In this document: piece after piece, positions 10,833 through 33,025 of the stretch
Numbering within the stretch: the first letter of the stretch is position 1
How the letters are laid out: every line of letters begins with the position of its first letter
Source: Bradyrhizobium prioriisuperbiae
Lineage (GTDB): Bacteria > Pseudomonadota > Alphaproteobacteria > Rhizobiales > Xanthobacteraceae
Length of the DNA: 64,000 bases
Assembly: GCF_032397745.1 (NCBI RefSeq)
Contig: NZ_CP135921.1
Coordinates: 3,584,501-3,648,500, forward strand
Direction of reading: 5' to 3'
Notes under the pieces: generated by a model
Database searches by the model: none
Seen by the model: the letters and a program-made list of their open reading frames with translations, nothing else
Told to the model about the DNA's origin: nothing
Program-made: the position numbers and the translations under genes

Positions 10833-12306
10833 ATGGTGCACGTGCGTGGGAAGTCTGACTCCGCCATAGTAGCTGTGAAGCCGGTGAACAAGGCGGAGCA
10901 ATCCGCTGCGGAACTGGTGGAGCCAAGGGTGGAGACCGAGGGGAAGGCGGATCAGCAAAGCACGTTCCGGGCGCAGAACCGGGCAGACGTGTCACAGGCG
11001 CTGGAACGCCTACGGCAAGCAGCAAGACAGAGGAAGAAGGAGCGGTTCACCGCGCTCTTCCACCATCTCAGCATCGAACTGTTCGGGGAGGCCTTCTTCG
11101 ATCTGAAGAAGAATGCCGCCTCCGGCGTGGACGGACTGACATGGCAGGCCTACGAGGCAGACCTTGAGCGCAAGCTCGAGGACTTGCATGCACGGGTCCA
11201 AAGGGGAGCGTATCGGGCGCTGCCGAGTCGGCGGGTCTATATTCCCAAGCCGGACGGTGGACAACGTCCGCTCGCGGTTGCCGCACTGGAGGACAAGATC
11301 GTTCAACGGGCGACGGCTGCGGTGCTGAATGCGATCTACGAGGAAGACTTCCTCGGGTTCTCATATGGCTTCCGGCCCGGACGCAGCCAACATGATGGGT
11401 TGGATGCGCTCGTTGTCGGGATCACCAGCACGAAGGTGAACCTCATTCTGGACGCCGATATCCGAAGCTTCTTCGACACGGTGAACCAATCATGGCTCAT
11501 CCGTTTCGTGGAGCACCGGATCGGCGATCAGCGCATCATCCGCCTGATCCGCAAATGGCTCAAGGCGGGCATCCTCGAAGACGGGGTCGTGACGATCGGT
11601 GATCAGGGAACGGGACAGGGATCGGTGATTTCACCGTTGCTTGCCAATATTTACCTGCACTATGTCTTCGACCTATGGGCCAATCGCTGGCGACGGCGCG
11701 AGGCTGCGGGCAACGTCATCATCGTGCGCTACGCCGACGACATCATCGTCGGTTTCGAGCACGAGAATGACGCCCGGCATTTTCTTGGCGCGATGCGGGA
11801 GCGGTTCAAGGAGTTTGCGTTGTCGTTGCATCCGTACAAAACCCGCCTGATCGAGTTTGGTCGCCACGCTGCGGCCAACCGCGAGCGACGCGGGCAAACC
11901 GGAGACGTTCAACTTTCTGGGCTTCACCTTCATCTGTGGGCAGACACGCGCGGGCAAATTTCTGCTTAAGCGAAAAACCCGGCGTGATCGCATGCAGGCG
12001 AAACTGAAAGCCATCAAGCAGGAGTTGCGACAGCGAATGCACCAGCCAATACCCGTGCAGGGAAAATGGCTGGGGCAGGTCGTCACGGGTTATTTCAACT
12101 ACCACGCCGTGCCGACCAACAGTCGTGCGTTGGTCACGTTTCGCTTCTTCGTCACCGAACTCTGGAAGCGATCGCTGCGGCGGCGCAGCCAGAAGGACGA
12201 CACGACCTGGCAGCGGATCACTCGGCTGGCCAACGACTGGCTTCCCAAACCGCGTATCCTTCACCCTTGGCCACAAGCACGCTTCGCCGTCAAACACCCA
12301 AGGTAG
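10833..12306 (+). pseudogene. ltrA: Group II intron reverse transcriptase/maturase (frameshifted)
   Basis: The first frame (from 10833) holds the RT domain: LSRRVYIPK-like fingers (RRVYIPKPDGGQRPL), YGFRPGRSQHDGLDAL, DADIRSFFDTV, GTGQGSVISPLLANIYLH and the catalytic YADD at residues 300-303. Near 11890 the frame breaks. The continuation reads GKPETFNFLGFTF, then the maturase (X) region and the conserved end PKPRILHPWPQ, stopping at 12306. The joined product would be about 490 residues, normal for the family, with no endonuclease domain. The shift removes the thumb and maturase domain from the translated protein. Confidence 0.85.
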
Positions 12307-24105: not shown

Positions 24106-25377
24106 TCATCTGTGTCGACGACAAAAATCTCCGAGAGCATCCACAAAGAGATCAAGCTCCGCCTCACAATTGTAATAGTGAAGGGAGGCCCTCAGAACAT
24201 TGTCCAGTTGCCGGTTTTCCATATCCAGGCGTGTCAGCGCCCTCTCAGAGATGCTGACATTGATGCGTCTGTTTGCCAGAAAGGTCCTGACTTCAGAAGG
24301 TTCGGAACCAGCAACCGAGAAGCTGACGATCCCGCAGCGACGGGTGCCGGTATCGTGGAGGCGAATTCGGGATACCCCGTGAAGCAGAGTGCGAAGCTTC
24401 TCGGCCATGTCGCCTGTGTATTTTTCGATGTTGCTTATGCCCCAGCCCCTGGCATGATCAACGGCAACCCCAAAAGCAATCTTTGCGGAGACGTTTGTCT
24501 CCCACGTCTCGAAGCGGCGCCCGTCGTCGTAGACGTCGTAGCCGTCCCGGGACGTCCACCCGGCGGCTCTCACGTCGAGCAGCATGGGTTCCTGGGAACG
24601 GCGCTGCTCGAATCGGCCGCCGCGGACGTAAAGAAGGCCGATCCCCCGTGGCCCACGCAGATACTTGCGGCTGCAGGTGGTCAAAATGTCAAATCCTCCC
24701 TCCTGCACGTCGATGAAAATCTGGCCCGCAGATTGGCAGGCGTCGAGGATATAAAGCGCTGACTCGTGAAGGAGTCCGCTCACTTTTGTTTCGCGTACGA
24801 GCCGTCCGATTTCGTTGACGGAGTTGACGACGCCATTGTTTGTTGGGACGTGGGTAATGCTGATCAATCTGATGGCTCGTCCGTGCTCAACAATGATGTC
24901 CATCAGAGAATCCATCGACAGCTCGCCGGTCGGGGTATTTTGCGCCACAACAACGCGGAGGCCGTAGCGGTGTTTTGCCTGAAGGATCGCCATGTAGTTG
25001 TTGGCGTATTCAAAATTGGACGTGACGACTACGTTTCCCTCTTCAAATTTGATGCCGGCGAAAATCAGACTCCACGCCCTCGAAGCGTTTTCCACGATTG
25101 AAATCTCCGAGACTGAACAGTTCAGTAACTTGGCGCAGGTCTCGTAGACGTGCTCTAATTCACGTGTGGCAGATTCGGCGGCTTCATACGCGCCCATACG
25201 CGCTTCGTCTCGCAAGTGTTTTATCGCCGCCTCCACGACACAATCAGGCATCAGCGAGGCGCCGGCATTGTTCAAATGAATAATGCGGTTGCACCCGGAT
25301 GTCTGGCGGCGCGCCAGCATCCAATCGATGACGGGCTCACTGCTTGTTAGCCTCGGAGGAGCGAGCTCGCTGCGCAT
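24106..25377 (-). CDS. Class V PLP-dependent aminotransferase/desulfurase-like enzyme
   Basis: About 423 residues from ATG 25377, which has AAGGAG at a good distance; a GTG at 25404 is the alternative. Fold type I hallmarks: HLNNAGASLMP near residue 35, the His in THVPTNNG, LDACQSAGQ with the PLP-pyridine Asp (about 212), and CSRKYLRGPRGIGLLYV with the Schiff-base Lys at about 238. The closest style is isopenicillin-epimerase/EgtE-like (C-S lyase) rather than IscS, since the mobile catalytic Cys loop of desulfurases is not evident. In the hydrazine cluster it could act as a lyase or transaminase on an amino acid intermediate. Confidence 0.85.
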   Translation of the reverse strand: MRSELAPPRLTSSEPVIDWMLARRQTSGCNRIIHLNNAGASLMPDCVVEAAIKHLRDEARMGAYEAAESATRELEHVYETCAKLLNCSVSEISIVENASRAWSLIFAGIKFEEGNVVVTSNFEYANNYMAILQAKHRYGLRVVVAQNTPTGELSMDSLMDIIVEHGRAIRLISITHVPTNNGVVNSVNEIGRLVRETKVSGLLHESALYILDACQSAGQIFIDVQEGGFDILTTCSRKYLRGPRGIGLLYVRGGRFEQRRSQEPMLLDVRAAGWTSRDGYDVYDDGRRFETWETNVSAKIAFGVAVDHARGWGISNIEKYTGDMAEKLRTLLHGVSRIRLHDTGTRRCGIVSFSVAGSEPSEVRTFLANRRINVSISERALTRLDMENRQLDNVLRASLHYYNCEAELDLFVDALGDFCRRHR

Positions 25378-25514
25378 TGATTGAAGCTCCTTCAGGTCTG
25401 TCACGGTGCTACTCCATCGACGGTGGATTACGCGTTGTTGGGCCTGGGCTAGTTGATTTTCGCATGGCTAAGCGAGTTTCAAGTGTGGTGGTCAATCGGC
25501 TGAACTGGCCATGG

Positions 25515-26732
25515 TTACGTTCGCTCTGTTGGAGTTGGCTTGTGTACAAGGCCAAGCTCAGCCGAGGTCAGGTAACGCCACGTGGCCACGGCGAACTCCA
25601 GGCCAGCCATTACGAGCAGTGCGAAGAGCAATGCCTGGTAGCCGCCGCTGACGATGATGAAGCCTCCCAGTTTTGGAAAGGCGAATACACCGAGGAAGTA
25701 AAACAGGGAGAAATAGACGAGCGTGCGGGAACGAAGGTGTTCGTCTGATGCGTTGACGGCCTGTGCCTGGATGAGTGGATAGACGAGACCGTAGCTGAGG
25801 CCGAGAAGCAGTGAGCTCGCGCCATAAAGGATTTCGTTGTTCGATACCATCGAGAACATCGCCAGCGACAAGCACATAAGGGCGAGGAGCGCGATGGTGG
25901 TCTTCATCGGCTCGCGTCGATTGACAAAGCCGCTGACGAGAAAGCGGGCTCCGATGACTGCTGCCGTGTAACAGATAAAGAAGATGGAGAAGTTCAGCCC
26001 TTTCGAGGCAGCGAAAGTCGTTTGGAAATTCATCATGGAGCTGAATACACAGGCGCCGAGAAACACCATGACCAGCGGATATCTCGCCGGCGAGAGCATG
26101 ATCATGCGGAACGCGGCCTTCTCGCCGCCTGGAAGCGATTCGCGTGTCGGTGCGTTGATGTGCAGACGTCGGCCGGCGGTGTAGAAGAGCAGGGCGCTCG
26201 CTGCCGCAAAAAGCATTGCGCCGATGAAAAGCTGCCAGTGCGCCACGCCGATTTTCAGAAGCTGCTGCGCCAGCACCGGCGTGAGCCCCATCCCTATGGC
26301 GTAGAATGCGGACAAAATGCTGAAGAACACCCCTCGATTGGCGTCGGTTACCAGGCCGGACAGCATGATCGGTGCGATGGTGAACGTCAGTCCCCAGCCG
26401 GCGCCGAGGAGAAATCCCGCGACGTAATAGAGTGGTGATATGGCGTGCACAAAGGCGAAGAGCGCTGCGCCTGCCGCATAACAGGAGGCGCCGATCGTTA
26501 TGCTGGCGTGCAGGCGCCAGAGCTTCATCATTTGATTGGCGAGCGCCACGCACAGAAGTGTGCCGAACGCACCAGCAAAGAGAATGTTGCCGACCACCGC
26601 CTCGTTTCCTCCAAGAGCCTTGATGTAGAGTGGCAAGGTGAAGAACAAACCGTAAGCGGATGCGATGCACAGGCAGGCGAGGTAGACCAGCGCCCTAAGA
26701 AAGCTCTGCGACATCGGAGCGGAAGATGTCAT
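25515..26732 (-). CDS. MFS transporter, probable product exporter
   Basis: About 405 residues. The start at 26732 (MTSSAPMSQSFLRALVYL) follows the MetRS-like stop by 2 bp, so it belongs to that operon; a longer frame to 26945 overlaps that gene. Twelve hydrophobic segments, with LGAGWGLTFTIAPIMLSG in helix 5 and FVNRREPMKTT as the loop after helix 8. No residues indicate a substrate. Its tight coupling to the hydrazine-forming genes argues for export or self-protection, but import cannot be excluded. Confidence 0.85.
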   Translation of the reverse strand: MTSSAPMSQSFLRALVYLACLCIASAYGLFFTLPLYIKALGGNEAVVGNILFAGAFGTLLCVALANQMMKLWRLHASITIGASCYAAGAALFAFVHAISPLYYVAGFLLGAGWGLTFTIAPIMLSGLVTDANRGVFFSILSAFYAIGMGLTPVLAQQLLKIGVAHWQLFIGAMLFAAASALLFYTAGRRLHINAPTRESLPGGEKAAFRMIMLSPARYPLVMVFLGACVFSSMMNFQTTFAASKGLNFSIFFICYTAAVIGARFLVSGFVNRREPMKTTIALLALMCLSLAMFSMVSNNEILYGASSLLLGLSYGLVYPLIQAQAVNASDEHLRSRTLVYFSLFYFLGVFAFPKLGGFIIVSGGYQALLFALLVMAGLEFAVATWRYLTSAELGLVHKPTPTERT

Positions 26733-26734
26733 GA

Positions 26735-28390
26735 TCAGTCCTCTTTCTGCAGTGCGGTGGCCGTCAGAATTTCTTCGCGCGATGTTGGCGTATGTCGATA
26801 GTTGAGGGGGCGGCGAAGCGGCTCGGTCTCGTCGAAGAACTTTGCCATTGTCGGCTGATCTGCATGGCCTAGCTTTTGCCAGAGGTCTTCGCCGAGGCGA
26901 GGCATCAGCGGATGTACGAGCAGAGCGAAGCTCTTGAGCCACCAATATGCGCGGGCGGGTGTATCACAGTAGGACATGCCCGATGCCAGCCAGTCCTCGA
27001 TAGCGCGCACGGCTCGGCGGAGCGAGAAATTGTTGGGAGAGAGAGCCGCGATCTGGGCCTTGAGCGCCTCCACGAAAGCATCCATCAGGGCTGGCGGGGG
27101 AGAGGTCGGCTCGACCTCGCATTCAATCTGGCGGGACGCGGCCGCGAGAGTTGCCTGGAGGCTGGCGCCGAAATCCTCGTTAACGAAGGAAACGAGCTCG
27201 TCGATATCGAGATTGCTCACCCACTCTTCGGGGCTGATCCTTGCCAGGAACATGCGAGCGAGATCGCTTGATATCGATGTGCGGCCCACCAGGTCGGACG
27301 CCCAAATGACATGGTTCCGACTGGTTGAGAACTTATGGTTCTCCAGATTGAGGAAGTAGTTGCCCAGATAGTGATCGAACGGTCTGTAGGCAGTGTGCTC
27401 GAGCGCGCTGCCGAGTACGCCGATCAGATAGAATGAAGCGTTGTCGAGGCCGAACGTCGCGATGGTGACAACGTTGGAGTCTGGATGGAATGGATGGACC
27501 GGATCCGATGTGAGCTGCTGATAGACGCTCCCGCACGTGAGTGAGTAACTGAAGAGACCCGTATGGCTGTACACGACATGGGGCAGATCACCGGCGGCCA
27601 CCGGCCATGCAACGCCCCAGCGCCCTGGATTGGTTAGCCGCACATCCGTCTTGTGTTGAAGATAGACATCCGCCGCCCGTGTGAATGCATCGGGTAGATG
27701 CATGCGGGAGACGATTTCCCGGATTTTTTCCGGATCCGATAATTTGAGGAACAGGCTCTCCACTTCGACCTCCGAAGTGGCACCGCCACCGCGACTGCGC
27801 GGACTTTGGATCTCTTCAGGGCTGAAGTGCGCGCCGCAGTTCTCGCAGCAATATCCGCCTGCGTTCGCTCCGCAAACCGGACAGCGTCCGAGCAGCCAAC
27901 ATCCCATGATGAAGCGGTTGTCTTTCGGATCGTATGGTACCTTTTCCAACCGCCGCACGGCTTTTCCAGTTTCCGTGAAATGGCGGAGCACATCGAGCTG
28001 CATGCCGTCATGGAGGTCCTTCCACTGCGGATGCAGCGGAGAAATCCATTCGTCGTAGACGATGTCGAGGCTATGCAGGTCCTGATCAATCAGGTGGTGG
28101 TTCATCCGGGCGATCTCGGCGGGAGTTTCGCCGGTCTGCCCGCTCTTCAGCAGCACGTAGGATTCGTATGCATCGGATCCGGAGATAATCCAGACTTCGT
28201 GTCCCGCGCGTCGGAGGTGTCGCGCCAGTACATCGCATTTCAGGAATGGCCCGGCGACGTGGCCGAGATGCAGCCGGCCGTTCGGCGTCGGCATCACGGG
28301 GATGATCAGATGTCGACGCGGTTCGCCGGTCAATCTGCGGGCCAAGTGAGTTCCTGGGGTCTGGTGGCCGTCGGGACTGGCTGGTGTCAT
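26735..28390 (-). CDS. Methionyl-tRNA synthetase-like enzyme; putative hydrazine synthetase MetRS component
   Basis: 551 residues with a class I aminoacyl-tRNA synthetase catalytic core. The HIGH motif is PNGRLHLGH (HLGH at 41-44), the KMSKS loop is HKFSTSRNH (353-357), and a zinc knuckle CPVC...CENC (170-173, 182-185) is in the connective peptide, as in MetRS. The stretch FGLDNASFY replaces the conserved GKDI/FH block of true MetRS, pointing to altered substrate use. It lacks a C-terminal dimerisation/tRNA-binding extension. It overlaps the upstream oxidase gene by 4 bp. In known N-N pathways a MetRS-like domain joined to a cupin couples glycine to N6-hydroxylysine; here the partner cupin is a separate gene. 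A housekeeping MetRS role is unlikely. Confidence 0.85.
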   Translation of the reverse strand: MTPASPDGHQTPGTHLARRLTGEPRRHLIIPVMPTPNGRLHLGHVAGPFLKCDVLARHLRRAGHEVWIISGSDAYESYVLLKSGQTGETPAEIARMNHHLIDQDLHSLDIVYDEWISPLHPQWKDLHDGMQLDVLRHFTETGKAVRRLEKVPYDPKDNRFIMGCWLLGRCPVCGANAGGYCCENCGAHFSPEEIQSPRSRGGGATSEVEVESLFLKLSDPEKIREIVSRMHLPDAFTRAADVYLQHKTDVRLTNPGRWGVAWPVAAGDLPHVVYSHTGLFSYSLTCGSVYQQLTSDPVHPFHPDSNVVTIATFGLDNASFYLIGVLGSALEHTAYRPFDHYLGNYFLNLENHKFSTSRNHVIWASDLVGRTSISSDLARMFLARISPEEWVSNLDIDELVSFVNEDFGASLQATLAAASRQIECEVEPTSPPPALMDAFVEALKAQIAALSPNNFSLRRAVRAIEDWLASGMSYCDTPARAYWWLKSFALLVHPLMPRLGEDLWQKLGHADQPTMAKFFDETEPLRRPLNYRHTPTSREEILTATALQKED

Positions 28391-29469
28391 TGCAGGGTAT
28401 CTCCGAGGAGGTCGAGCGCTGCTTCGGCAATTGCCGGCGATAGGCGATAGCCGGATCCGGAGCAGGCGAGGGCGTGTGCGACACGCGGCGACTGCGGGTC
28501 GCGGGCAATGGCCGGCACGCGTGTGGGGCTATAGGCATCGCAGAAGACGCGGCCTCCCCGGGTTCGGTCCAGCAGTGCCGGTGCGTAACGTGTCAAAGTG
28601 CGAGCCGCCGTGGCGCGGTCGCGTGCGCTGAGGGACAGCCGAGAGATCTCTGGCTCAACGTCCCAGTCTTCGCTGGCAAAGCAGAATATCCAGCGCCCGT
28701 TCTGGGGATCGGGAAGGAGATAGGCGTCGTCTTCCGCGAAGTAGACGATAGGGTCGTCAGTCGTCGCCGCAAGATCGGCGTGCAGGGCAGCAACCTTTTT
28801 GATTCGCAGCCCGTTCTCCGGAAGGCGCTGCTGATGCAGGTTCAGCCAGGGACCGGTGGCGCGCACCAGATGGCGGCTGCGAATGACCTGGCCGTCGGCT
28901 GTGAAGATGTCGCAGCCGTCGGGGCGGTCAGTGAGCGCCGTCACGTGAACTCCCTCGTAACAGGCGACGTCGGGGAGTTGCCGGAGTCGGGCGAGCAGAT
29001 GCATGACCGTTTGGCTCGGATTGCCATGCCAGGCCGCCGTATCGACAAGAATTGCATCGTCGGGGGAGAGGGACAGGACCGGCAGGCTGTGTTGCAGGGC
29101 AGCCATCTCGTCCGCTGTCGGGGAATGTGCGGCGTCGCTCGTCAACAGCATGCGGAACGCGGCCATGCGATCTGCCCCGGCAACCCAGAACACGGGAATT
29201 TTGCGAGCCGGCAGGGGGCCGGCCCAGCGGTCCAGATCTGCGAAGATTTCCTCGCTGCGCCGAACGAAGCGGCGATGTGTATCTGTGATACCGAACGGAA
29301 TGCGGACGGCGCCGCCATAGAGAGACGTGCCACTGCCGGCGAGCGATCGATCGAGAACAGCGATACTGAGGGCAGGATGCGTTCGCTTGGCAATGCAGGC
29401 AACCATCATGCCCACAATCCCGGCGCCGACCACCGCCAAGTCGAATTCGTTGTCGAATTCGTCAGCCAT
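28387..29469 (-). CDS. FAD-dependent D-amino acid oxidase/glycine oxidase-like flavoprotein
   Basis: 360 residues of the DAO fold. LAVVGAGIVGMMVACIAKR gives the N-terminal FAD motif (GxGxxG at about 16-21), followed by VLDRSLAGSGTSLYGG. The C-terminal ACSGSGYRLSPAIAEAALDLL is the closing FAD-binding block of DAO enzymes. Overlaps: 8 bp with the upstream cupin gene and 4 bp with the MetRS-like gene. In the hydrazinoacetate pathway a glycine-oxidase-like flavoenzyme cleaves N6-(carboxymethylamino)lysine, releasing hydrazinoacetic acid, and this gene fits that role. Oxidation of another amine is the alternative. Confidence 0.85.
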   Translation of the reverse strand: MADEFDNEFDLAVVGAGIVGMMVACIAKRTHPALSIAVLDRSLAGSGTSLYGGAVRIPFGITDTHRRFVRRSEEIFADLDRWAGPLPARKIPVFWVAGADRMAAFRMLLTSDAAHSPTADEMAALQHSLPVLSLSPDDAILVDTAAWHGNPSQTVMHLLARLRQLPDVACYEGVHVTALTDRPDGCDIFTADGQVIRSRHLVRATGPWLNLHQQRLPENGLRIKKVAALHADLAATTDDPIVYFAEDDAYLLPDPQNGRWIFCFASEDWDVEPEISRLSLSARDRATAARTLTRYAPALLDRTRGGRVFCDAYSPTRVPAIARDPQSPRVAHALACSGSGYRLSPAIAEAALDLLGDTLQ

Positions 29470-29803
29470 GCGCGTTCCACCACACGGAGAAGAGCTTCAA
29501 CTCCTGATCACCGACATTGCGTAGCTGATGAGGGCGTTGGGACTGGAAATAAGTGACCGACCCCGGCTCAAGCTGCACGGTTTCCCCAGCCGAGATGAGT
29601 TCACCGCGGCCGGAAATGACGACCCAGCATTCGCGCATCGCGTGTTCGTCCATGGGCGTGGTGGCGGCGGGCGGGACAGTGACGATGCCCGCCTTGAATG
29701 GCGCTGCCCAGGTGTCGCCGTCGTTGAAGTCAAGTTCTTTGAGGCGCGTCCCGCCGGGGTAGTCCTCAACGTGGTGGACCGACATCAATGAGCTTTTGAT
29801 CAT
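29462..29803 (-). CDS. Single-domain cupin; putative cupin component of hydrazine synthetase
   Basis: 113 residues forming one cupin barrel. The first motif region PMDEHAMRECWVVISGRG supplies Asp52, His54 and Glu58; the second, RPHQLRNVG, supplies His92, making four plausible metal ligands. In described hydrazine synthetases a cupin and a MetRS-like domain occur in one polypeptide; here they are separate and divided by the oxidase gene. It starts 4 bp inside the end of the monooxygenase gene (ATGA) and ends 8 bp inside the oxidase gene, so all are co-translated. Confidence 0.82.
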   Translation of the reverse strand: MIKSSLMSVHHVEDYPGGTRLKELDFNDGDTWAAPFKAGIVTVPPAATTPMDEHAMRECWVVISGRGELISAGETVQLEPGSVTYFQSQRPHQLRNVGDQELKLFSVWWNAHG

Positions 29804-31122
29804 AGGGCTTGCTTCACTTGTTGCTGCGATATGAGCGACAACGTCCTTTCGATGAACTGGTCGCTCTGCGGGGTCTGGAAATGCTCATACCCCAGCAGGC
29901 TGTTGATAATCGTGGCGCTGCGCCAAGCCATGAGACTCAGATTGGGGTCTGCGACGCCATGGGTCTGTTGCGCCGCGTTCTGCAGGTAGAGGCGGTTGCT
30001 GCATGGCATGCGCCACTGTGCTGAGAAGTCGCGCCGGAGGCGCAGGTATCCGTCCTCGATCTCGAACATGTGTGCGATGTTCTCAAGGAAGGGCGGAATG
30101 AAAGCCTCGTAACCCGTCGCCAACACCACCAGGTCGGAAGTGAGACTGGTTGGTGCGCCTGTCTTCGTATCGGAGAAGGTCAGCTGCGATTCCGCACCGA
30201 CGCGCTGCAGATCTGTTAGCTCCTGATCGACCAGGAGTCGCAAATTGACATTGCGGCGTTCGAGGTATTTTGCCCGATAGATCTCCTGATAGATCTCACG
30301 CAAGGTGCTGGACGAGATGCCATCGCTCGCGAGTTTTTGCGTTGCAAGGGCATCCCGGCGGCTGCCGAGATCCATGCCGTGGAAATATTCCGCGTATAAT
30401 GGTGTGAAATACTCGTTCGTGAAGGGCGTTTCGTCGAGCGGACTGAAGTTGTAACGGCGTGTCACCCAGTTGATGTTGACCGGGGCGCCGCTGCCGTTGC
30501 TGCGGACGAAGTGGAGGAAAATCTCGGCCGCGCTTTGTCCGCCGCCCACGACTGTTACGGTGCGTGGCGGTGGCACGTTTGCGATGCGTTCGAGGAATCT
30601 CCCGGCGTGGAAGACGGAGGCACCGAGATGTTGCCTGGCGCAGGCGGGGATTCGGTCACGGCGGCCGATCCCGACAACGACGTGCTTGCACAACACCTCG
30701 AGATTGGGCTCGATGCGGGCGACAAACAGGCCGTCGCGATGGGTTAGCTGTTCGACGCCTTGTCCGAAGTGAAGATTGGGCAGGCGTGACGCCACCCATG
30801 ACATGTACTCAGTGAACTCCGCTCGTGTGATGCGGTCGAAGTCGGCATTGATGAATTGATGCAGGCGCCGATGTGAATGCAGAAAGTTGATAAAGGAATG
30901 TCGGCTCGTCGGGTCGGCAAAGGAGACAAGGTCTTTGAGGAAAGATGTCTGCAAGAGGGCGTCACGGAAGAGGAGGCCTGGATGCCAGGTAAAAGCGCTC
31001 TTGCGTTCGAAAAATGCACTGGCAAGATGCGGAACGCCATCGAGAAGAGCTGCAGTGCTCAGATTGAAGGGTCCTATGCCGATACCGATAACATCGTAGA
31101 TGCCGGCTGTGGCAGCTGCCAT
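29800..31122 (-). CDS. Lysine/ornithine N-monooxygenase (IucD/SidA family)
   Basis: 440 residues from ATG 31122; a TTG-started extension to 31200 has no family character. The FAD motif is GIGIGPFNLSTAA (about 13-24), followed by the substrate-domain signature HPGLLFRDALLQTSFLKDLV and SFINFLHSHRRL. NADPH binding is seen as VVGGGQSAAEIF (191-202), and the C-terminal ATGYE plus HGVADPNLSLMAWRS complete the family. These enzymes hydroxylate the side-chain amine of lysine or ornithine with FAD, NADPH and O2. It is the first enzyme of the cassette and would supply N6-hydroxylysine to the cupin/MetRS pair. No siderophore synthetase is nearby, which argues against a siderophore role. Confidence 0.88.
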   Translation of the reverse strand: MAAATAGIYDVIGIGIGPFNLSTAALLDGVPHLASAFFERKSAFTWHPGLLFRDALLQTSFLKDLVSFADPTSRHSFINFLHSHRRLHQFINADFDRITRAEFTEYMSWVASRLPNLHFGQGVEQLTHRDGLFVARIEPNLEVLCKHVVVGIGRRDRIPACARQHLGASVFHAGRFLERIANVPPPRTVTVVGGGQSAAEIFLHFVRSNGSGAPVNINWVTRRYNFSPLDETPFTNEYFTPLYAEYFHGMDLGSRRDALATQKLASDGISSSTLREIYQEIYRAKYLERRNVNLRLLVDQELTDLQRVGAESQLTFSDTKTGAPTSLTSDLVVLATGYEAFIPPFLENIAHMFEIEDGYLRLRRDFSAQWRMPCSNRLYLQNAAQQTHGVADPNLSLMAWRSATIINSLLGYEHFQTPQSDQFIERTLSLISQQQVKQAL

Positions 31123-31220
31123 GATTCCAACCCTTTTCCGCTGCGCGGGTTTGTTAGTTTCGATGAGTAACCATCGGCCACAGTCTGACGCCCGGCTCAA
31201 TGGCGACCGCGATATCGTTC

Positions 31221-31507: not shown

Positions 31508-33025
31508 TTGCGATTGGGGGAAGTGTTGGCAACAAGCTCGCGCCGGCGAGAGGACAGCGGTTATCTGGTCGATATCGCTGTTGATCGGTCGTCCGATCTG
31601 CCGGTTGCTCGTCAACTCTATCTCGCGATACGCGCGGCGATTCTCGGGGGGCGCTTGCAAGCCAATGCGCGGCTACCTTCCACCCGCACCGCGGCGCGAC
31701 TCTGGAACGTCGGGCGAGGGACGGTCATCGAAGCCTATGAGACGTTGTTGGGTGAGGGCTTTGCCGATGGTCGGCTGGGTTCGGGCACCTATGTGGCGGC
31801 CGATGTGCCGAACCGAGCGAGCCGCCCGAGCCGTCCCAGCCGCAGTGGGCCGGCGGGCACCGGGTTGGAATGTTCTCTTTCTCGTGCCGCCCTTGCGATT
31901 ATCAAGGAGCCGAGGTTGCTCGATGTGCCACCTCAGGACGCCTTCGTTATGGGCCGAGCCGTGCTGGATGAAAGAACGCGCGGAATTCTCAAGCGCATTG
32001 GTAATCGCCATCTCGCGGTCCTGGCGGGCCACTATTGCGATCCACAGGGAGAGGGGTGGCTCCGCGAGGCGGTATCCATCTATCTAAGGGCGGCCCGCGG
32101 TGTACGCTGCGAGCCGGACCGTATCTTCATCACAGCCGGCTCGCAGCAGGCGATCGATCTCGCCATTCGCACCTTGATCAATCCCGACGACGTGATGGCC
32201 ATCGAGAATCCGAGTTATCCGCCGGCTCGGCTTGCGGCCATGGCCCATAACGCCAGGCTCTCCCCCGTGCCAGTCGATGACAATGGCATCGACGTTTCGG
32301 TGCTTGCCGGCCTCGCTGAAAAACCCCGTGCGGTCTATGTGACACCTTCACACCAATATCCAACCGGAGCGGTCCTCTCCATGGCTCGGCGTCTGGCGCT
32401 CCTGGATTGGGCGACGTCAACGGGTGCCTGGATCTTGGAAGACGACTACGACAGCGAATTCCGTTATGACGAGCGTCCCCTCGCCGCACTGCAGGGGATC
32501 GATGAGCACGACCGAGTCATATATATCGGAACCTTCAGTAAGGCTCTGCTGCCCGGCTTGCGCATCGGGTATCTGGTGGTGCCGATCGACCTGGTACCGG
32601 CTTTCCGGGCAATGCGAGCGCTGCTCGATCGTTTTCCTGCTCCTTTCCACCAATTGGTCGTCGCGGATTTTCTGGCCGAGGGCCATTTTTCAGGCCATCT
32701 GCGGCGGTTACGCGATGCCTACCGAGCCTCCCGCGACATGCTCGTGCCCTTGCTGCAAGAGCGTCTCGCAAAACATTTGCACGTTAGTTTACCGCGCCAG
32801 GGGATTCATCTCCTTGCGCGGCTCCGGGCGGGTCGCAAGGATGTCGGCATCGCGCATGCCGCCCTGCGGGCAGGGGTCACGGTCATGCCCGTGTCTCCAA
32901 TGCATATTGGACCGAAGCCTCCCCAGGGGCTCGTGTTTGGTTTCGCGGGGCTTACAAGCCGGGAAGCGGATCTCGGCACAAAGAGGCTGGCCAAGGTGTT
33001 TGAACAGAGCGCGACCACTGGCTGA
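31508..33025 (+). CDS. MocR/PdxR-type regulator (GntR winged helix fused to aminotransferase domain)
   Basis: About 500 residues. An N-terminal GntR helix-turn-helix (PVARQLYLAIRAAILGG, LPSTRTAARLWNVGRGTV, YETLLGEGF) is followed by a class I aminotransferase-like domain with YVTPSHQYPTGAVLSM, WILEDDYDSEFRYD and IYIGTFSKALLPGLRIGYL; the PLP lysine is in FSKALLP. MocR proteins sense PLP adducts or amino metabolites. The start codon is uncertain: TTG 31508 is the longest, while GTG 31523 or TTG 31526 lie behind a GGGGGA block. It is divergent from the minus-strand cluster and is its most likely regulator. Confidence 0.88.
   Translation: MRLGEVLATSSRRREDSGYLVDIAVDRSSDLPVARQLYLAIRAAILGGRLQANARLPSTRTAARLWNVGRGTVIEAYETLLGEGFADGRLGSGTYVAADVPNRASRPSRPSRSGPAGTGLECSLSRAALAIIKEPRLLDVPPQDAFVMGRAVLDERTRGILKRIGNRHLAVLAGHYCDPQGEGWLREAVSIYLRAARGVRCEPDRIFITAGSQQAIDLAIRTLINPDDVMAIENPSYPPARLAAMAHNARLSPVPVDDNGIDVSVLAGLAEKPRAVYVTPSHQYPTGAVLSMARRLALLDWATSTGAWILEDDYDSEFRYDERPLAALQGIDEHDRVIYIGTFSKALLPGLRIGYLVVPIDLVPAFRAMRALLDRFPAPFHQLVVADFLAEGHFSGHLRRLRDAYRASRDMLVPLLQERLAKHLHVSLPRQGIHLLARLRAGRKDVGIAHAALRAGVTVMPVSPMHIGPKPPQGLVFGFAGLTSREADLGTKRLAKVFEQSATTG

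Follow-up and report, generated by a model that had tools for sequence, protein, structure and literature searches.

What is the product of a tightly packed group of minus-strand genes in Bradyrhizobium prioriisuperbiae that places a flavin-dependent N-hydroxylase next to a small cupin and a protein resembling methionyl-tRNA synthetase (MetRS)? The genes lie in a stretch of 64,000 nucleotides (positions 3,584,501 to 3,648,500 of contig NZ_CP135921.1, assembly GCF_032397745.1), referred to in the following as the window, from a genome that consists of a single contig of 9.08 Mb. An operon of five genes, encoding an N-monooxygenase (NMO), a cupin, an oxidase, a MetRS-like protein and a transporter of the major facilitator superfamily (MFS), very probably makes a small amino acid derivative with an N-N bond via the known two-protein hydrazine-synthetase route. 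This assignment is derived from sequence data, namely the gene identities, the retention of catalytic residues, an amino-acid-type pocket in the NMO and the presence of a separate housekeeping MetRS. With four enzymes and a transporter, the system would be a compact addition to the recently described chemistry of N-N bond formation.

The unit starts with the NMO (29800..31122), a flavin-dependent N-hydroxylase of the Lys/Orn monooxygenase family (PF13434, Lys_Orn_oxgnase, 355.3 bits) with the pocket residues K63, N236 and S396. Its length of 440 amino acids is counted from the ATG at 31122; the list of open reading frames (ORFs) has a longer TTG start at 31200. Then follow a standalone one-domain cupin of 113 amino acids (29462..29803; PF07883, Cupin_2, 60.5 bits), an oxidase of the DAO type of 360 amino acids that is dependent on flavin adenine dinucleotide (28387..29469; PF01266, DAO, 101.5 bits), and a standalone MetRS-like protein of 551 amino acids (26735..28390; PF09334, tRNA-synt_1g, 160.6 bits). 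The Pfam matches of all four proteins exceed the curated cut-offs. According to the ORF list, NMO and cupin genes overlap by 4, cupin and oxidase genes by 8, and oxidase and MetRS-like genes by 4 bases, in agreement with a sequence-only reading of this DNA that had described four coupled genes in this order from 31122 to 26735. While these four were correctly described, the unit as drawn there left out a fifth coupled gene: the ATG of an MFS transporter of 405 amino acids (25515..26732, likewise on the minus strand; PF07690, 103.1 bits) lies 2 bases past the MetRS-like stop codon, and hence the coupled unit comprises five genes rather than four.

In a sequence search of the PDB, the best solved-structure match of the cupin is 5UQP (E 5.8e-17). 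This entry is RHS1, a standalone zinc cupin from Rhodococcus jostii RHA1 that forms an N-N bond (Zhao et al. 2021, PMC8664883). Exchange of Asp63, His65, Glu69 or His103 of RHS1 for alanine led to loss of conversion in each case (PMC8664883). Alignment places D52, H54, E58 and H92 of the window cupin, its predicted metal residues, at the equivalent positions, including the invariant glutamate. The His, Glu and His metal positions are identical in all 62 aligned cupins, whereas the first metal position varies (Asp in 36, His in 23, Glu in 2 and Tyr in 1) and is Asp in the window protein, as in RHS1. The protein search for relatives of the cupin covered 6 candidates only. An N-hydroxylase for the hydroxylamine partner is encoded alongside, in the form of the overlapping NMO gene. 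The N-N bonded metabolite proposed from the sequence alone thus finds support in a four-gene set that matches the cupin/MetRS-like hydrazine synthetases of the PyrN, Spb40 and RHS1 type, with RHS1 as the nearest relative of the cupin and its residues kept.

The MetRS-like protein retains the class I motifs, i.e. H41, G43 and H44 of HxGH and K353 as the KMSKS-type lysine, none of which varies across the 27 aligned rows. Yet its scores with the matching NCBIfam synthetase models fall short of their curated cut-offs (best score 477.6 versus 551), and it carries KFSTS where the ordinary MetRS encoded elsewhere in the same genome (C1:6848162-6849235) carries KMSKS. A role as the only methionyl-tRNA synthetase of the cell, which the sequence-only reading had named as the finding that would speak against its proposal, is ruled out by this second enzyme. 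The closest PDB relatives of the MetRS-like protein, 9vq4 and 9l8v (118.3 and 117.6 bits), were deposited as methionine-tRNA ligases but share a KFST motif with the hydrazine family. Among plasmids, 314 records contain a match to the window protein at E<=1e-10, 188 of these records being from Escherichia, and only 20 records reach at least 80% query coverage.

NMOs of the Lys/Orn monooxygenase family often serve siderophore pathways. The neighbourhood could therefore be read as a siderophore NMO with chance neighbours, in which the cupin, the oxidase and the second MetRS (for example an antibiotic-resistant one) each serve a different purpose. Besides the usual role of the family, two further strong PF13434 genes in the genome would fit such an arrangement, but we consider it very improbable. 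The genes overlap, and their order recurs in 12 of 80 related loci, which are the best 80 of at least 578 confirmed in a genome scan and form a set biased toward the type found in the window. In addition, the MetRS-like protein has KFSTS in place of KMSKS and clusters with stand-alone proteins from loci that mostly also hold an NMO and a cupin. Finally, families of nonribosomal peptide synthetases (NRPS), polyketide synthases (PKS) or siderophore synthetases are absent from the 39 window proteins scanned with Pfam, just as the sequence-only reading had claimed for the surroundings of the cassette; the window has 130 ORFs of at least 150 amino acids, and a large part of them overlap with ORFs of the other strand.

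Taken as a hydrazine-synthetase operon, the five genes suggest the following pathway. The NMO would act on a lysine-like amino acid and hydroxylate its side-chain amine. A second amino acid would then be adenylated by the MetRS-like protein and, without involvement of tRNA, esterified with the hydroxylamine to give an unstable product. This ester could be rearranged by the zinc cupin, with Glu58 as the key residue, into a hydrazine-linked conjugate, from which the oxidase would release a free hydrazino acid or a side-chain hydrazine by cleavage of a C-N bond. The MFS protein may finally transport the product, probably outward. Since there is no assembly line among the scanned neighbours, the pathway may yield a simple hydrazino compound that is exported and could easily be searched for.

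Which amine enters the pathway depends on the NMO, for which overall similarity and pocket residues point in different directions. Its best PDB scores are obtained with DfoA (224.5 bits), DesB (223.9 bits) and a putrescine hydroxylase (218.1 bits), ahead of KtzI (175.9 bits) and PvdA (174.4 bits). Conceivably, the same machinery could thus act on a diamine such as cadaverine, putrescine or 1,3-diaminopropane and furnish an aminoalkyl hydrazine derivative, and N-hydroxy-putrescine and N-hydroxy-DAPN are reported as substrates of some hydrazine synthetases in a 2024 review (PMC11705231). The pocket argues for an amino acid instead. SidA holds ornithine via N323, N293, S469 and K107, residues that are missing in DesB (PMC8009421). 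The window NMO has Ser266, N236, S396 and K63 at these places, so that three of the four are kept. In particular, the carboxylate-binding lysine and asparagine, which are lost in diamine N-hydroxylase pathways, are present as K63 and N236. The pattern Lys, Asn, Asn, Ser at SidA positions 107, 293, 467 and 469 is found in 39 of 70 aligned NMOs, including that of the R. jostii cluster. By comparison, the NMO of a Robbsia cluster has Ala, Leu, Asp and Gly at these positions and thus deviates at all three places where the window protein keeps the lysine, asparagine and serine; the genes adjoining it are annotated as a diaminobutyrate transaminase and another aminotransferase. A diamine is therefore an unlikely substrate in spite of the high overall similarity to diamine hydroxylases. 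An amino acid is most likely, as the three retained amino-acid-binding residues fit a lysine-like substrate; lysine is the favoured candidate, and ornithine or diaminobutyric acid are others of different chain length.

The Robbsia locus deserves mention in its own right. Located on a plasmid of Robbsia andropogonis (L098), it combines an NMO, a MetRS-like protein and a cupin with the two transaminase genes, and these neighbours together with the diamine-type pocket of its NMO suggest 1,3-diaminopropane as the substrate.

The second amino acid is predicted to be chosen by the MetRS-like protein. In a tree of 79 proteins, it groups with the metagenome proteins P0002-P0004 (64-69% identical) at 100/100 and then with three more at 100/100. 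For this tree, 24 of the 80 loci were dropped as near-duplicates or pieces and more by length, and 22 of 120 listed proteins were used. A branch with 100/99 support parts the side of the window protein from the side that contains the fused cupin-MetRS enzymes and the glutamate-using R. jostii protein, although the latter sits on a long branch and its exact position is unsure. The pocket-region motifs of the window protein also differ from those of the fused enzymes and of the R. jostii protein; for specificity, eight residue positions have been reported (PMC11705231). Hydrazinoacetate formed from lysine and glycine, as suggested by the sequence-only reading, is not supported as such: the NMO pocket fits a lysine-like amino acid, but glycine is not established for a MetRS-like protein that stands off the fused-enzyme side of the tree. 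As its clade is without an identified characterised member and its pocket motifs deviate, hydrazinoacetic acid is only one possibility among several products. By its family, the oxidase may cut the C-N bond on the lysine side in the manner of Spb39, whereas Apy10, a related enzyme, cleaves the other bond (PMC11705231). An alignment of the window oxidase with 26 oxidases of related loci contains 18 invariant columns.

How widespread is this set of genes? The order NMO, cupin, oxidase, MetRS, on one strand and with a separate cupin, that the sequence-only reading had proposed to search for is present in the 12 loci mentioned above, which derive from four phyla (Pseudomonas, Trinickia, Paraburkholderia, Acidisphaera, a Xanthobacteraceae metagenome-assembled genome (MAG), Microbispora, an acidobacterial MAG and Chitinophaga). 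They span less than 4.5 kb in 11 cases and 8.8 kb in one. In the remaining 68 loci, the genes are ordered differently, the enzymes are fused or a partner is missing, where a partner counted as missing may merely have escaped detection by a search with a single sequence. Locus L064 ends at a contig end, and the MetRS-like gene of L058 is split over two frames. The same-order cassettes L030 and L058, the two that were scanned further, carry another DAO-type oxidase directly after the MetRS-like gene, at the place of the MFS gene in the window. MFS relatives occur at E<=1e-15 in 10 of the 80 loci, all among the 13 loci from Hyphomicrobiales, which are not independent of each other. Among 199 relatives, the MetRS-like protein has a match at E<=1e-20 in 6, including the genome itself; the other five are only 25-30% identical. 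Four Bradyrhizobium loci contain all five genes in the order MetRS, MFS, NMO, cupin, oxidase, with MetRS-like proteins that are 33-34% identical to that of the window. The lack of co-conservation in related genomes, which the sequence-only reading had named as counter-evidence, thus applies in part: rearranged five-gene sets exist in these four loci, but the cassette is absent from the two other same-genus genomes inspected, and the 199 relatives offer only the five distant matches.

Several of these observations weigh against the proposed pathway. The overall score of the NMO is nearest to diamine hydroxylases, and at the fourth pocket position it has Ser where SidA has Asn. A sequence search of the PDB returned no relative of the oxidase at E<=1e-3, and no characterised member was identified in the clade of the MetRS-like protein in the 79-protein tree. 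Furthermore, the cassette is sporadic, its MetRS-like gene being absent from both of the other same-genus genomes.

A locus from a Hyphomicrobiales MAG (L024) bears on the question of how the second amino acid is selected. Its NMO, cupin and oxidase share 62%, 57% and 57.5% identity with the window proteins, and an MFS relative with 65% identity sits beside them. The MetRS-like protein is only 38% identical, and its gene lies on the opposite strand, starting about 4.7 kb from the NMO behind a LysR regulator, an amidase and another MFS gene. The window and L024 pair in the NMO and oxidase trees (100/100; Shimodaira-Hasegawa-like approximate likelihood ratio test, SH-aLRT, 100) as well as in the cupin tree (99/99), whereas the MetRS-like protein of L024 groups with those of Pseudomonas, Trinickia and Paraburkholderia at 100/100. 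Forcing it into the clade of the window protein is 230 log-likelihood units worse (approximately unbiased (AU) test, p 4.9e-127), and forcing the L024 NMO together with the Pseudomonas-Burkholderiaceae NMOs is 167 units worse (AU p 7.4e-5); both groupings were picked after inspection of the trees. L059 and L043 also appear mixed between trees. Tree distances were compared for 13 cassettes, the window and 12 chosen from the 80, and gave Spearman coefficients of 0.46 for NMO-oxidase, 0.50 for NMO-cupin, 0.04 for NMO-MetRS, 0.15 for oxidase-MetRS, 0.10 for cupin-MetRS and 0.07 for oxidase-cupin. Because the oxidase-cupin value is just as low, this comparison by itself does not single out the MetRS-like gene.

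On a simple reading, at least one lineage would have swapped its amino acid selector, i.e. the MetRS-like protein, since L024 shares the chassis of the window but has a MetRS-like gene from another clade. That L024 is a single MAG scaffold calls for caution here. Zhao et al. describe the MetRS-like protein as a potential gatekeeper (PMC8664883). More tentatively, and with considerable doubt, split cassettes might gain new products by replacement of the MetRS-like subunit alone, with the other four genes kept. The window and L024 would then be a matched pair, and the selector of the window, whose clade has no identified characterised member, might use an amino acid beyond the five reported ones, Gly, Ala, Ser, Glu and Tyr. 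Comparing the two loci would be a natural way to ask if the choice of amino acid lies with the MetRS-like protein alone.

Among the genes flanking the operon, a regulator of the MocR type (GntR/aminotransferase; 31508..33025, plus strand) is encoded divergently. It matches PF00392 and PF00155 and scores 389.9 bits with the PdxR model, for which the cut-off is 320. Hydrazines react with pyridoxal 5'-phosphate (PLP). That the regulator senses a hydrazine and controls the unit is an attractive guess, to which we give little weight because relatives at E<=1e-15 are limited to 4 of the 80 loci. Between regulator and NMO lies an ORF of 38 amino acids (31379-31263, minus strand) with a good ribosome-binding site, GGGGAGG; the ORF occurs once in the genome (allowing up to 3 mismatches over the first 38 bases). 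A role as a precursor peptide was rejected, with matches outside the window of at most 24 bits and no positional counterpart seen in L024 or other loci.

The genes past the MFS gene, encoding a class V PLP enzyme (24106-25404, minus strand), a DUF3311 protein, an SSF symporter, MlrC, a YggS-like protein and a deacetylase, were likewise rejected as pathway members. Relatives of the PLP enzyme, SSF, MlrC, YggS and the deacetylase at E<=1e-15 are found in none of the 80 loci (DUF3311 was not counted), and the deacetylase has two weak matches at a looser E<=1e-5. DUF3311 and SSF occur together, without the other downstream genes, in two of three SSF stretches from relatives. The genes lying further downstream resemble an independent operon for uptake and degradation. 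A paralog of the PLP enzyme with 62% identity (G000:C1:6907538-6908806, L120) sits in a PKS cluster with genes for an adenylation/carrier protein, a thioesterase, a phosphopantetheinyl transferase, an FkbH-type protein, an acyl-CoA dehydrogenase and a 3-hydroxyacyl-CoA dehydrogenase. Elsewhere in the genome (G000:C1:842000-856000, L121), second copies of the deacetylase (81%) and of the second MFS gene of the window (55%) are linked and followed by a short-chain dehydrogenase. Elsewhere in the window, the product of a plus-strand ORF (10833-11969) matches the reverse transcriptase family RVT_1 with 119.4 bits.

Is the split of cupin and MetRS-like protein new? The fused cupin-MetRS polypeptide of the hydrazinoacetic acid pathway, as in s56-p1, triacsin and azaserine, is not present in the unit, where the two functions are encoded by separate genes with the oxidase between them, and the sequence-only reading had considered this a distinct architecture. 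Published work and the genome scan both show that this arrangement is not new. Hydrazine-synthetase enzymes sometimes occur as two standalone proteins (Zhao et al. 2021, PMC8664883). In Table 2 of the review, four entries have two protein identifiers each, and six further entries are named as pairs; one published example is the separate Afn8/Afn9 pair of albofungin (PMC11705231).

The RHS1 cluster of R. jostii RHA1 resembles the window in its standalone zinc cupin, standalone MetRS-like protein and lysine hydroxylase (PMC8664883), and the two agree in the four cupin metal residues as well as in the pocket pattern of the hydroxylase. Its MetRS-like protein is only about 27% identical to that of the window, and the cluster uses glutamate to form a lysine-glutamate conjugate (PMC8664883). 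A close relative of this cluster, DK180, has genes for a lysine aminomutase, a luciferase-like monooxygenase and a protein of the saccharopine dehydrogenase type, but its annotated stretch, unlike the window, lacks a DAO-type oxidase. The s56-p1 type (Spb38, Spb39 and Spb40) shares with the window an N-hydroxylase, a DAO-type oxidase and the cupin and MetRS-like functions (PMC11705231). Spb40, however, is one didomain protein that uses glycine (PMC11705231), in contrast to the two proteins of the window, and the window MetRS-like protein lies across the 100/99 branch from the fused enzymes, in a tree that does not contain Spb40 itself. In albofungin biosynthesis, afn8, afn9 and afn18 likewise stand for a separate MetRS-like protein, a cupin and a lysine hydroxylase, but belong to an aromatic polyketide cluster with a hydrazine transferase (PMC11705231), whereas the 39 scanned window proteins include no PKS or asparagine synthase family. 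Closest in layout are the 12 loci of the genome scan, which have the same four genes in the same order and on one strand, with the oxidase between the cupin and MetRS-like genes, and whose MetRS-like proteins are 26-39% identical to that of B. prioriisuperbiae.

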